Source of the DNA: Actinomycetaceae bacterium TAE3-ERU4
GTDB lineage: Bacteria > Actinomycetota > Actinomycetes > Actinomycetales > Actinomycetaceae
DNA: 64,000 nucleotides
Assembly: GCA_019218365.1 (NCBI GenBank)
Contig: JAHUUJ010000005.1
Span: 1-64,000, forward strand
Direction: 5' to 3'
How positions within the stretch are numbered: the stretch's first letter is position 1; each line of letters begins with the position of its first letter. The notes beneath the pieces are model-generated. The model saw nothing but the letters and a program-made list of their open reading frames with translations, was not told the origin of the DNA and made no database searches. The position numbers and the translations under genes were made by a program. Of this stretch, positions 14,243 through 19,765 are shown in pieces.

Positions 14243-14327
14243 CGCATTTATAGCGAATTCAATGGACAATAGAAGTGTATCTGCAAAAGCACCGCTGATG
14301 GTGCAAGTACGAGTGGAAGAAGGATCC

Positions 14328-17069
14328 GTGAGCGAACTCAACGAGACCAGCCCCCTCATCGACGGCCTGCTAAGCCAGGTTCCGGACAACGATCCAGAGG
14401 AAACAAAAGAATGGATTGAGTCCCTGGATGGGCTGATAGACGAAAAGGGCGGACCACGTGCCCGCTACATCCTACTGTCGATGCTACGCGAAGCACGCAT
14501 GCGCAATGTTTCCGTACCGCAATCACTGACCACCCCCTTCGTGAACACCATCGGTGTTCACCAAGAACCTTACTTCCCTGGCGATGAGGTCACAGAACGA
14601 CAAATTCGTCGTTGGATTCGCTGGAACGCCGCTGTTTTGGTGACACGAGCTCAGCGCCCGGGAGTTAAAGTCGGTGGACACATTTCCTCCTATGCCTCGG
14701 TTGCAACCCTATACGAAGTTGGTTTCAACCACTTCTTCCGTGGGAAGAACCATCCTGGAGGCGGAGACCACGTATTTTTCCAGGGACACTGCGCCCCCGG
14801 TAACTACGCACGCGCCTTCCTTGAAGGCCGACTAACTGAGGATGACCTCGATGGCTTCCGACAGGAAGTAAGCCACGACCACGGCATCCCCTCTTACCCC
14901 CACCCCCGTCAGATGCCCGACTTCTGGGAATACCCCACCGTCTCTATGGGACTAGGGCCTGCAGAAGCTATCTATCAGGCATGGTTTGACCGTTACCTAC
15001 ACGAACGTGGCTTAAAAGACACCTCGCAGCAGCACACTTGGGCTTTCCTCGGTGACGGCGAAATGGACGAACCAGAATCCCGCGGTATGCTTCAGCTAGC
15101 CGCCCAGCAAGGCCTAGATAACCTTACCTTTGTTGTGAACTGTAACCTTCAGCGTCTTGACGGCCCGGTTCGCGGTAACGGCAAGATTATGCAGGAACTA
15201 GAAGCCTTCTTCCGCGGTGCCGGCTGGAACGTCATCAAGGTAGTTTGGGGACGTGAATGGGACGTTCTGCTAAATGCAGATAAAGACCGCGCCCTCGTTA
15301 ATTTGATGACTGAAACCCTAGATGGTGATTACCAGTCCTTCCGAGCCAACGACGGTGCGTTCATCCGTGAAAACTTCTTCAACCGTGACCCGCGTACAAA
15401 AGCCATGGTTAAGGACTGGTCAGATGAACAGATTTGGTCCCTAAAGCGCGGTGGACACGATTACCGTAAGGTTTACTCGGCTTACAAGGCCGCGATGGCT
15501 CACACCGGTCAGCCCACGGTAATCTTGGCTCACACTGTTAAGGGATACGCTCTCGGTACACACTTCGCCGGCCGTAACGCTACACACCAGATGAAGAAAC
15601 TGGCAATTGACGATTTGAAGGCACTGCGTGATCGCCTGCAGATTCCAATTTCCGACGAAGTTTTGGAAGCCAACCCCTACGAGCCTCCTTACTACCGTCC
15701 CGAGCCAAATGACCCCGCTCTCCAGTACATGATTGAGCGCCGTGAAGCACTGGGTGGCTTCCTGCCCTCACGTCCAACTAAGGACGGCGAGCTTCCCATG
15801 CCAGCAGAAAAGATTTGGAACGTTCTAAAGGACGGATCTGGGAAAATGGAAGTCGCCACCACTATGGCGTTCGTCCGACTTCTCAAGGACATCATTAAGG
15901 ACAAGCAGATTGGTAAGCACATTGTGCCTATCATTCCTGACGAGGCGCGTACTTTCGGTCTGGATGCTATCTTCCCAACCGCGAAAATCTTCAATACTCA
16001 CGGTCAGAACTACACTCCGGTAGACGCCTCTATGATGCTTTCTTACCGTGAATCGAAACAGGGACAGATTCTCCACACCGGAATCAACGAAGCGGGTTCT
16101 GCCGCTGTATTCCAGGTAGCTGGTACTTCCTACGCCACCCACGGCGTACCGATGATTCCGGTTTACATCTTCTACTCGATGTTCGGATTCCAGCGTACCG
16201 CAGACCAGTTCTGGGCTGCTGGTGACCAGCTATCACGCGGTTTCATCATTGGAGCTACCGCAGGACGCACCACTCTAGCCGGTGAAGGAACCCAGCACAT
16301 GGATGGACACTCGCCCATCATCGCGGGAACCAACACTGCGGTCGTTCAGTATGACCCTGCCTACGCCTACGAAATTCGCCATATAGTACGCGATGGTCTA
16401 CAGCGTATGTACGGTCCGGACTACTCGCGCGACCGCAATGTGATGTACTACCTGACCGTTTATAACGAGCCAATTCACCAGCCGGCAGAACCTGAAGACG
16501 TGGATGTTGAAGGCATCATTAAGGGTATTCACCAGGTCGCAAAGGCTGAAGGCGACGGTGTTAAGGTAGACCTCCTAGCTTCTGGTGTCGGCGTTCCTTG
16601 GGCTATGAAGGCTCGCCACTTACTCGAACAGGACTGGGGCGTAAGCGCTTCGGTTTGGTCAGTAACTAGCTGGCAGGAACTACGCCGAGATGGTCTCGCT
16701 GCGGATAAGCACAACTTGCTTTACCCAAGCGAAGCCAAGCAAACCGCATTTGTTACACAGAAATTGCAGGGCGGTTCTGGAACCTACATTGCAACCTCTG
16801 ATTTTGACCACCTAGTTCAAGACCAGATTCGCAAATGGGTACCTGGCTCTTACTCGGTACTTGGTGCTGACGGCTTCGGATTCTCCGACACCCGTTCAGC
16901 AGCCCGCCGCCACTTCTTTATCGATGCTGAATCAATGGTAGTAGCTGCACTAGCTCAGCTTGCTGAAGAAGGAAAGGTGCGCCCCGAAGCTGTTCCCGCC
17001 GCAATTGAAAAGTATGACCTTTTCAATGTTAACGCTGGAACTTCTGGCTCAACCGAGGGTGAAGGCTAA
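14328..17069 (+). CDS. aceE: Pyruvate dehydrogenase E1 component, homodimeric AceE type
   Basis: This is the thiamine-diphosphate enzyme that decarboxylates pyruvate and passes the acetyl group to the E2 subunit, about 913 residues. It is the single-chain homodimeric E1 of actinobacteria and gamma-proteobacteria. The N-terminal half contains the ThDP/Mg motif [12 protein letters not shown] and [15 protein letters not shown]; the middle has [20 protein letters not shown] and [12 protein letters not shown]; the C-terminus has [11 protein letters not shown]. The frame opens with an ATG at 14262 without a ribosome binding site. The GTG at 14328 has AGAAGGA close upstream and gives the usual N-terminus ([14 protein letters not shown]), so it is preferred. 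E2 and E3 are not in this window. Confidence 0.95.
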
Positions 17070-17177: not shown

Positions 17178-18680
17178 CTAGAATCCATAATCTGGAATAT
17201 CCACGATTGGAGCAAACTCAGGCGGAATCTCAGAAGAATCATCCTCTACCTCTAAGACTCCCGAATACACCGGCATAGCCAAGTTTGCAGGACTTAAAAT
17301 CTGATCAACTTGCGCAGCGGTTAAAAGTCCCTTTTCGATTACCAAATCACGAACCTGACGCCCAGTACTTGCTGCCTCTTTACCAATAATATCGCCATTA
17401 TGGTGACCAATAATATCGTTGAAATAAGTAACTATTCCAATAGAGTTCATTACATAGGCCTCGCATTTCTCTGCATTTGCCTCGATACCCTCTACGCATA
17501 GCTCACGCAAAGTACGAACAGCATTTGTCAGTAACTGCAAGGACTCATGAAGACTTTGTGCGATTACAGGCTCCATCACATTCAACTGTAGCTGGCCTGC
17601 CTGCGCCGCCATCGTAACAGTCACATCATTCCCAATTACTTTAAAACAAACCTGATTCACGACCTCGGGAATAACCGGATTAACCTTTGCCGGCATAATT
17701 GAAGAACCCGCAGCCCGCTGTGGTAAACGAATCTCTGCCAGCCCAGCCCGCGGTCCGGAAGAAAGCAAGCGCAAATCATTACAAATCTTAGCTAATTTAG
17801 AGGCACAACGCTTCAAAGTACCGTGCATGGATACATAAGCACCCGTGTCCTGTGTTGCCTCAATGAGGTTGGTTGCACCGATAATATCCGTACCGGTAAT
17901 CTCTCGAAGTCTCTTTACAACCCGTTCTTGATAGCCCGGAGGAGTATTAATTCCAGTTCCAATTGCTGTGGCACCCAAGTTAGTTTCCAACAAAAGTTGA
18001 GAATTATTTTCTAATCGCCCATCTTCCTCAGCTAGATTAACAGCAAAAGCAGCCATCTCCTGCCCAAGGGTCATTGGAACAGCATCCTGTAACTGAGTGC
18101 GTCCCATTTTTAAGATGTTACGAAACTCAAGCCCTTTTTCAGCAAATGCATCAACTAAGCGAGCAAGCTCCACCCGGAAATCTGAAACAGCTTCATAAAC
18201 AGCTAACCGCAAACCGGTTGGAAAAGTATCATTCGTAGACTGTGAACGATTCAAGTGATCGTTCGGATCAAGAACATGGTAATCACCACGTGGACGTCCC
18301 ATCATCTCCAAAGCCAGATTCGCGATGACCTCATTAGTATTCATATTTACCGAAGTACCGGCCCCGCCTTGGAACAAATCTACAGGAAACTGATCCATAC
18401 AAAGACCGTGATCTAAAATTGCATCACAGGCTTTAACGATTGCTTTCACCCGCCATTTACGCATCGTCCCTAAATCGCCATTTGCCAATGCGCAGGCTTT
18501 CTTTACCTGAACCATAGCGCGAATCATCTGCGGGAAATCATTCATTGTCGTTCCAGAAAGACGATAGTTTTCAGTCGCCCGCAACGTGTGTATTCCCCAG
18601 TAAACCGAAGCGGGAATCTCACGTGCACCTAGTAAATCTTCTTCCAACCGGGTCTGCAGATTGGGATTATTCTGTGTCAT
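17178..18680 (-). CDS. aspA: Aspartate ammonia-lyase (aspartase)
   Basis: It converts aspartate to fumarate and ammonia; it belongs to the fumarase/aspartase superfamily. The 500-residue protein carries the superfamily signature [11 protein letters not shown] near residue 325, plus [15 protein letters not shown] and [17 protein letters not shown] fumarase class II is less likely given the ASPA-like N-terminus ([20 protein letters not shown]). The frame extends upstream, but the ATG at 18680 has GAGG at 6-nt spacing. It stands alone between aceE and the ACP-like gene and has its own terminator. Confidence 0.93.
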
Positions 18681-18768
18681 CAAAAACCTCGATGTTATTC
18701 GTAACAGCGGTCTCAAAACAAGGCCACACAACTATGTTAACGAACAAAATAAAGGTTCGCGTTAAAGG

Positions 18769-19128
18769 CTAAGGTTTTTCTGAAATAGATTCTAAAGTTG
18801 CCACAATATCAGCGATATTCCGCCACTTTTCTACTTCTATATCAGGTATAGAAAGTTTAAACTCGCTTTCTAGTCGAGCCACTACCGCCCAAATTGCCAG
18901 CTTGTTTAAACGCAAAGTAGAAATTTCAGTGGAAAGAGAAAACTCCTCCGGAGCAATCTTTGTATGTGGAAGTAGTGCAGTAACTACCTCTGTAAGTAAA
19001 TCCTGTTTTTTATCTTCTGAAACTTCCCCCTCCGAGGAATCTAAAACAGCCAATTCAGCATCCGTTGTCGGAGAGCCTTCTTCCCCCTCAAGCTGTGCCT
19101 TTAAAGCAACTAGAGCCGATAAATCCAT
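18769..19128 (-). CDS. Acyl-carrier-protein-like protein lacking the phosphopantetheine serine
   Basis: This 119-residue protein has an acidic N-terminal stretch of about 45 residues, then an ACP-like helical domain. The segment LESEFKLSIPDIEVEKWRNI matches helices II-III of acyl carrier proteins. The DSL motif that carries 4'-phosphopantetheine is replaced by NKL (TLRLNKLAIWAVV), so it cannot be a conventional acyl carrier. It starts 4 bases after the DUF3145 stop. In Streptomyces the DUF3145 gene follows fabD-fabH-acpP-fabF, so this may be a repurposed or decaying acpP. I am fairly confident of the fold and not of the function. Confidence 0.7.
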   Translation of the reverse strand: MDLSALVALKAQLEGEEGSPTTDAELAVLDSSEGEVSEDKKQDLLTEVVTALLPHTKIAPEEFSLSTEISTLRLNKLAIWAVVARLESEFKLSIPDIEVEKWRNIADIVATLESISEKP

Positions 19129-19132
19129 TATC

Positions 19133-19633
19133 TCAGCCTACCCGATGTAGCCAACGCACGGGAACGTCATCCCCGGCATAGCGGAATGGCTCCAATTCTT
19201 CGTCCCAGGCAGTACCTAAAGCCAGAGCTAAAATTTCTTTCACTCTCTCCGGGTTAGTTTCCTCCAGTAAAGCAGCACGAACCCGTTCTTCGGGAATTAC
19301 AACATTGCCGGCGCTATCAGTCTGCGCATGGAAAAGACCTAACGAGGGAGTATGAGACCAGCGCCCACCATCGCAAGCAATTGATGGCTCTTCCGTAACT
19401 TCAAAACGCAAGTGTTCCCATCCTCGCAAAGCCGAAGCAATTCTAGCTCCCGTTCCGGCTGGTCCCATCCAGGCTACCTCGGCGCGGAACATCCCTGGCG
19501 AAGCTGCCTGAGGGGTCCAGTGAAGCTGCAGAGGAGAACCTAGAGCGTCAGAAGCCGCCCACTCTAGGTGGGGGCACAATGCGCGCGGGGAAGAATGCAC
19601 AAAAAGTACACCCCGTGTATTAGACCCGTTCAT
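19133..19633 (-). CDS. DUF3145 family protein
   Basis: This 166-residue protein belongs to DUF3145, an actinobacterial family of unknown function normally encoded at the end of the type II fatty-acid-synthesis cluster. Segments include TRGVLFVHSSPRALCPHLEW, LRGWEHLRFEVTEEPS and GTAWDEELEPFRYAGDD. It has no signal or membrane segment. A strong AAGGAGG precedes the ATG. It is the first gene of a two-gene operon with the ACP-like gene; no other fab gene is nearby. Confidence 0.9.
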   Translation of the reverse strand: MNGSNTRGVLFVHSSPRALCPHLEWAASDALGSPLQLHWTPQAASPGMFRAEVAWMGPAGTGARIASALRGWEHLRFEVTEEPSIACDGGRWSHTPSLGLFHAQTDSAGNVVIPEERVRAALLEETNPERVKEILALALGTAWDEELEPFRYAGDDVPVRWLHRVG

Positions 19634-19765
19634 ATTTCCTCCTTAGCGTGAGGGTCGTCTTCCCCTACGTCCTCAAGTTAAGAAAGGTACGTCCAATCGG
19701 TGTGTATCTAGAGTATGCCACTATAAGAAGGAGAAAGCCAGCTATAGACACGCTAAGACGAAGAA

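Follow-up and report, generated by a model that had tools for sequence, protein, structure and literature searches.

The window analysed here, a stretch of 64,000 nucleotides from Actinomycetaceae bacterium TAE3-ERU4, carries next to a DUF3145 gene a short reading frame whose product resembles an acyl carrier protein (ACP) without the phosphopantetheine serine, and the question is what such a protein is kept for. The first-pass annotation of the locus had left two answers side by side, a repurposed ACP or a decaying one. The whole is best explained, and with fair probability, by an apo protein-binding module derived from acpP, whose partner would most likely be DUF3145. The reading frame was correctly described as intact; it opens with ATG and encodes 119 amino acids plus stop, and its start lies 4 nt downstream of the stop codon of DUF3145. 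The DUF3145 neighbourhoods were read genus by genus, and the serine-less relatives found there, which also have open frames, are named ACPL together with the window protein. The features of the window are listed in Table 1.

Table 1. Positions in the window of ACPL, its domains and key residues, and the neighbouring genes and elements.
Feature	Positions	Strand	Basis
aceE (pyruvate dehydrogenase E1), anchor of the ancestral aceE-PucR-acpP-fabF-DUF3145-def block	14262..17069	+	Pfam PDH_E1_M, gene order
aspA, synteny anchor; in FAS-II Actinomyces it flanks acpP-fabF as well	17178..18731	-	Pfam Lyase_1, gene order
ACPL, serine-less acyl-carrier-protein descendant	18769..19128	-	open frame, Pfam PP-binding 22.0 bits, AlphaFold ACP fold, family-wide occurrence
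Four-helix ACP domain, residues 42-117	18778..19005	-	AlphaFold2 pLDDT, Foldseek ACP matches, profile A1 against AcpM 1e-13
W80, new conserved aromatic, serine+4	18889..18891	-	column counts: W/Y in 67/68 ACPL, M/L in 52/52 acpP
K76, replaces the phosphopantetheine serine (DSL to NKL)	18901..18903	-	alignment with 52 canonical acpP, S in all
Short N-terminal helix, residues 4-14 (SALVALKAQLE), on acidic linker	19087..19119	-	AlphaFold helix; motif in relatives
DUF3145, presumed partner, co-directional with ACPL	19133..19633	-	Pfam PF11343, E 3.2e-71
Conserved leader hairpin upstream of DUF3145	19649..19676	-	GAGG-n-CG-TWGGGGAAGR-CG-nn-CCTC; alignment of 38 leaders

A profile search against ACP families placed the Pfam PP-binding domain (PF00550) on residues 56-112 with a marginal 22.0 bits, the curated gathering cut-off being 20.8. 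Two relatives, L138 and L196, scored 32.6 and 16.9 bits, the latter under the cut-off. The NCBIfam ACP models gave 13-22 bits with the window protein, far under their cut-offs, and the scores for the curated AcpP models were likewise low (TIGR00517, 17.7 against 70.45 bits; NF002148, 22.3 against 71 bits). The structure predicted by AlphaFold2 from an alignment of 16 relatives and 23 canonical ACPs displayed helices at residues 32-55, 76-90, 96-100 and 105-117, with a pLDDT per block of 79-91 over residues 41-119 (84-91 over 41-110) and of about 90 in helices II-IV. The PDB matches listed by Foldseek for this model were ACPs, alone or within larger complexes, mostly with TM scores of 0.7-0.87 by target length, and a profile of 40 ACPL relatives (A1) had mycobacterial AcpM among its best sequence matches in the PDB, at 1e-13. 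The model is thus ACP-like. The likeness, which had been confined to helices II-III, is real and extends over the whole four-helix domain.

The acidic extension of about 45 residues that had been described at the N-terminus was also observed (12 acidic and 3 basic residues in positions 1-45), and the prediction adds to it a short helix of its own at residues 4-14. The region of low pLDDT at approximately residues 17-36 represents the linker between this helix and the ACP domain. The motif of the terminal helix, in the forms ALAALKAQL, ALAKLAAL and IAELLG, is found again in relatives. A short helical motif (ALAALKAQL / AADLAKLF) is N-terminal where ACPL is co-directional with DUF3145 and C-terminal in several ACPL that are convergent to it, where a similar ADLxxLF helix is seen. 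Its tether is acidic or of low complexity each time (L138:8508-8885, L087:5555-5986, L097:5533-5889 and L248:1477-1893).

Comparison with the 52 canonical acpP sequences revealed two changes, at the serine site and four residues after it. In acpP the D, S and L of the DSL motif are invariant and are followed by M or L four residues after the serine, and every acpP located beside fabF has this form. N75-K76-L77 of the window ACPL aligns with the motif, in agreement with the reported change from DSL to NKL. Among the 68 ACPL, the serine site is occupied by at least nine different residues and serine is absent from 63, while position +4 is W in 36, Y in 31 and C in one, and the Glu at serine+11 is kept in all 68. 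Serine is found at the site in a single genus, g4, in five species (L088, L255, L257, L258 and L262) with DSV in the W-containing helix, and these species also have a FAS-I-type ketoacyl synthase (KS) and AcpS. In genera related to g4 the residue is R, D, V, A, H, L, N or C, in the same TRW context. Since the serine-bearing forms all belong to one genus and the TRW context is kept, we read S as one drifted state. The disappearance of the old constraint together with the appearance of a new one at +4 is what a new function, not decay, would be expected to leave. A recent loss of the serine in the window ACPL was considered and rejected, as all three congeners of the window genome lack it too; nor did the relatives reveal a recent, frameshifted loss beside serine-bearing close kin.

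The window ACPL as a single query matched in 67 of the 213 genomes of the family, and the ACPL profile in 195, with canonical acpP among the matches; P0001 alone as a query gave no match in a search of the genome contigs. The serine-less form was found in more than 60 sequences with open frames, from about 19 genus groups, and all four congeners (the window genome and three others) keep the gene. ACPL is co-directional with DUF3145 and lies directly downstream of it, usually at 0-40 nt, in g1, g16, g19, g20, g24, g27, g30, g34, g35 and Scrofimicrobium. The two genes are convergent in g4, g6-g9, g12, g13, g25, g28 and g32, as are the neighbours in most FAS-II loci. The tight coupling to DUF3145 that had been proposed therefore holds in the window and in about nine genera, whereas elsewhere the genes are convergent neighbours. 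The convergent ACPL of g13, with 74-78 amino acids, resemble plain acpP in size and orientation. No ACPL was detected in a few FAS-II-less genera that carry DUF3145 (g18, g23, g29 and g36), so ACPL is not always needed. The names of two records, L145 (Trueperella pyogenes 331_TPYO) and L200 (Xylanimonas cellulosilytica 352_XCEL), are probably wrong, as their loci are almost identical to loci of oral Actinomyces/Schaalia.

Gene order was compared in 121 loci, with the domains checked by Pfam. FAS-II loci from the same family or order read, with small variations, aceE> (aspA<) PucR-type regulator> acpP> fabF> DUF3145< def<. In FAS-II-less loci the order is aceE> (aspA<) ACPL DUF3145< def<; fabF and the PucR-type regulator are absent, and ACPL occupies the acpP slot between aceE/aspA and DUF3145/def. 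Canonical acpP at the locus goes together with a strong stand-alone fabF beside DUF3145 (E < ~1e-38). The remaining genomes mostly have a FAS-I synthase, which is one frame of approximately 3000-3170 amino acids in ten of the genomes examined, or no ketoacyl synthase. In a tree of 103 domains one branch splits ACPL from acpP (99/94, and 98% of bootstrap trees), although with 74 columns and long branches the inner detail is weak. Gene order and tree suggest, at a level close to certainty, that ACPL descends from the FAS-II acpP of the same locus and was kept after FAS-II was lost. The convergent ACPL retains the ancestral orientation, the window form being the same gene inverted into the DUF3145 operon. 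The first-pass annotation had missed that ACPL is orthologous by position to the acpP of FAS-II, and also that the genome is devoid of any fatty-acid synthase or PPTase.

The window genome (1.70 Mb, 99.98% complete) contained no match to PF01648, which covers AcpS and Sfp-type PPTases and matched in 10 of 14 control genomes, and no match to PF00109 (ketoacyl synthase), which matched in all 14. In the absence of a PPTase no arm can be attached to ACPL, and the serine itself is replaced, so the earlier statement that no prosthetic arm is possible stands. Lacking the features that define a functional ACP, ACPL should not carry that annotation. The three congeners keep FAS-I (3094-3174 amino acids) and AcpS, which shows that the loss of synthase and PPTase from the window genome is recent; ACPL was serine-less before this loss and survived it. 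It is also kept in genomes without KS or AcpS within g7, g8, g12 and g16. A hidden second ACP was sought and rejected, since ACPL is the only gene of the window genome with a PF00550 score above the cut-off. With neither type of FAS and no PPTase, the organism is expected to depend on an external supply of fatty acids, in contrast to its three congeners.

Selection was estimated from pairs with usable dS. Whole-gene dN/dS was 0.10-0.41 for ACPL and 0.00-0.12 for DUF3145. For the ACPL domain alone, dN=dS was rejected in five of seven pairs (p from 8e-5 to 2e-13). The two closest pairs, with domain dN/dS of 0.61 and 0.65, did not reject it (p ~0.4), and in these same pairs dN=dS was rejected for the extension. 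Between the window ACPL and its congeners dS is saturated or nearly so, and the claim of selection is thus drawn from the relatives, in which dN/dS is mostly below 1, as expected under purifying selection. We consider it very probable that ACPL is under selection for function. A predicted ACP fold, a widespread serine-less form, a fixed new aromatic and mostly low dN/dS together favour the repurposed ACP of the two answers first offered.

DUF3145 was present in 208 of the 213 family genomes and in 187 of the 198 genomes sampled from the class. In an order-level search it was missing from one whole family (f3, with small, Bifidobacteriaceae-like genomes) and present in nearly every other genome. 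A PDB sequence search with DUF3145 returned chance-level matches only, and the literature gave only two passing mentions of it, with no described function. The DUF3145 and ACPL genes of the window are not in frame with each other. For the in-frame pair of Boudabousia liubingyangii, a fused read-through was modelled by AlphaFold, in which both domains fold (pLDDT 79.5, pTM 0.53) with no scorable interface; the Foldseek and VIA lists for this model were filled by ACPs, so that DUF3145 itself was barely tested. The operon shared with ACPL in about nine genera makes DUF3145 the best candidate for a partner. However, where the neighbours are convergent, as they are in many genera and at the majority of FAS-II loci, adjacency could be inherited position, and the chances that DUF3145 is the main partner of ACPL seem to us evenly balanced.

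The DUF3145 gene is preceded by a hairpin 15-30 nt before its start, in the same place in about 80 loci (L138-L217), in which a fixed CG-TWGGGGAAGR-CG apex is carried on a variable GAGG/CCTC stem. The stem covaries (two-sided changes in 26 cells, compared with 11.8 in shuffles) and pairs in 88%, as compared to 29-35% in slid controls. The hairpin had no match in Rfam, and it could be an autoregulatory or a protein-binding site.

We propose that ACPL is a former FAS-II acpP, which outlasted FAS-II at the ancestral locus and became an apo protein-binding module. Unable to carry anything, ACPL could act only through contacts, and three features fit such a module: the kept domain, the aromatic residue gained at +4, and a short terminal helix carried on an acidic tether. 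We regard this mode of action as likely. ACPL would bind and stabilise its partner, most likely DUF3145, without a prosthetic arm, and the binding of ACP by DUF3145 may go back to FAS-II ancestors. W80 would either fill the unused acyl pocket or form a new contact face, and the terminal helix on its tether could provide a second contact or an anchor. A more specific version holds that the near-universal DUF3145 of actinomycetes has ACP as an obligate structural subunit, and that ACP was kept for that role alone after FAS-II loss, losing its serine and outliving the PPTase; this version is tentative, and we lean slightly against it.

A different partner, such as a cysteine desulfurase, a SpoT-like enzyme, a membrane transporter or a lipid enzyme, would leave the apo module as it is and make the adjacency to DUF3145 a legacy of the FAS-II locus. 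Known ACPs do bind MukBEF (PMC8602292), the ISC machinery (PMC13343975) and SpoT (PMC3340395), and in mycobacteria MmpL5 (PMC11633376) and EmbB (PMC7305291). The place beside DUF3145 is older than the loss of FAS-II, the two genes are convergent in many genera, and DUF3145 persists in some genera without ACPL. Inherited position alone does not, however, predict that ACPL should be inverted into the DUF3145 operon and stay there in about nine genera, and we consider a different partner unlikely, though less so than the readings below. If ACPL were instead an unrelated paralog or a horizontally gained ACP that came to lie beside DUF3145 by chance, the weak detail of a tree with long branches and 74 columns would be no obstacle, but its position in the very slot from which acpP and fabF are missing, and the acpP-like size and orientation of the g13 forms, speak against it; this reading is very improbable.

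Equally improbable is a decaying, functionless relic of acpP, the other answer first offered. It would account for the lost serine and pathway, the fast divergence, the two close pairs with domain dN/dS near 0.6 and the disappearance of ACPL from a few genera. It does not account for more than 60 open-frame sequences in about 19 genus groups, the W/Y fixed in 67 of 68 and the E at +11 in every one, the rejection of dN=dS in other pairs at p values as low as 2e-13, or the pLDDT of about 90 in helices II-IV of the predicted ACP fold. The serine site has drifted while a new aromatic became fixed, and on the grounds of breadth, fixed W/Y and mostly low dN/dS, decay was rejected. Least probable of all is that ACPL is still a carrier, either with its prosthetic group or substrate on another residue or with the g4 serine form as a persisting carrier function. 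The five g4 species that combine DSV with a FAS-I-type KS and AcpS fit such a role, but the window genome lacks every PPTase, and the related genera have eight other residues at the site in an unchanged TRW context. The preferred reading thus remains an acpP-derived apo module.

ACPL offers a natural experiment in which the two jobs of an ACP, acyl carriage and protein binding, come apart: carriage is impossible in the window organism, yet ACPL persists within a constrained family in which a new aromatic has become fixed. Should DUF3145 prove to be the partner, this would be the first lead on a class-wide protein without a solved relative or a described function, and would suggest that some core process of FAS-II actinomycetes is linked to ACP.

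One set of known counterparts is the AcpP of Actinomyces, Cellulomonas, Georgenia and Demequina, encoded with fabF beside DUF3145. ACPL shares with them the locus, the fold, the Glu at serine+11 and the helix III-IV pattern. They are modifiable, with DSL, M or L at +4 and an adjacent fabF and PucR-type regulator, whereas ACPL has none of these features. Mycobacterial AcpM is a true FAS-II carrier and has its serine. It resembles the proposal for ACPL as an actinobacterial ACP that is a structural subunit outside FAS, in the EmbB (PMC7305291) and MmpL5 (PMC11633376) complexes; unlike AcpM, ACPL is not a carrier, and it has no known connection to Emb or MmpL. The AcpP of E. coli resembles the proposal for ACPL as a binding partner outside fatty-acid synthesis, bound to MukBEF (PMC8602292), SpoT (PMC3340395) and the ISC machinery (PMC13343975), but there a single protein serves both roles and keeps its arm.

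For a serine-less exapted ACP, no bacterial precedent was found in the open literature. To our knowledge, such exaptation is known from apicomplexan mitochondria only. The serine-less exapted ACP itself is already known, and the bacterial version appears to be new. The closest known case is in Plasmodium, where FAS-II has been lost and the mitochondrial mACP, without 4-phosphopantetheine, is essential as a partner of Isd11-Nfs1 (PMC8547962). Like mACP, ACPL has kept the ACP fold and lost both the serine and its cognate FAS-II. It differs in being bacterial rather than from a eukaryotic organelle, in lying beside DUF3145, a putative partner in place of Isd11-Nfs1, in its W/Y at serine+4 and tethered terminal helix, and in that the host of the window is also devoid of every PPTase. 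ACPL probably works like the arm-less mACP and, if so, would be its counterpart in bacteria.
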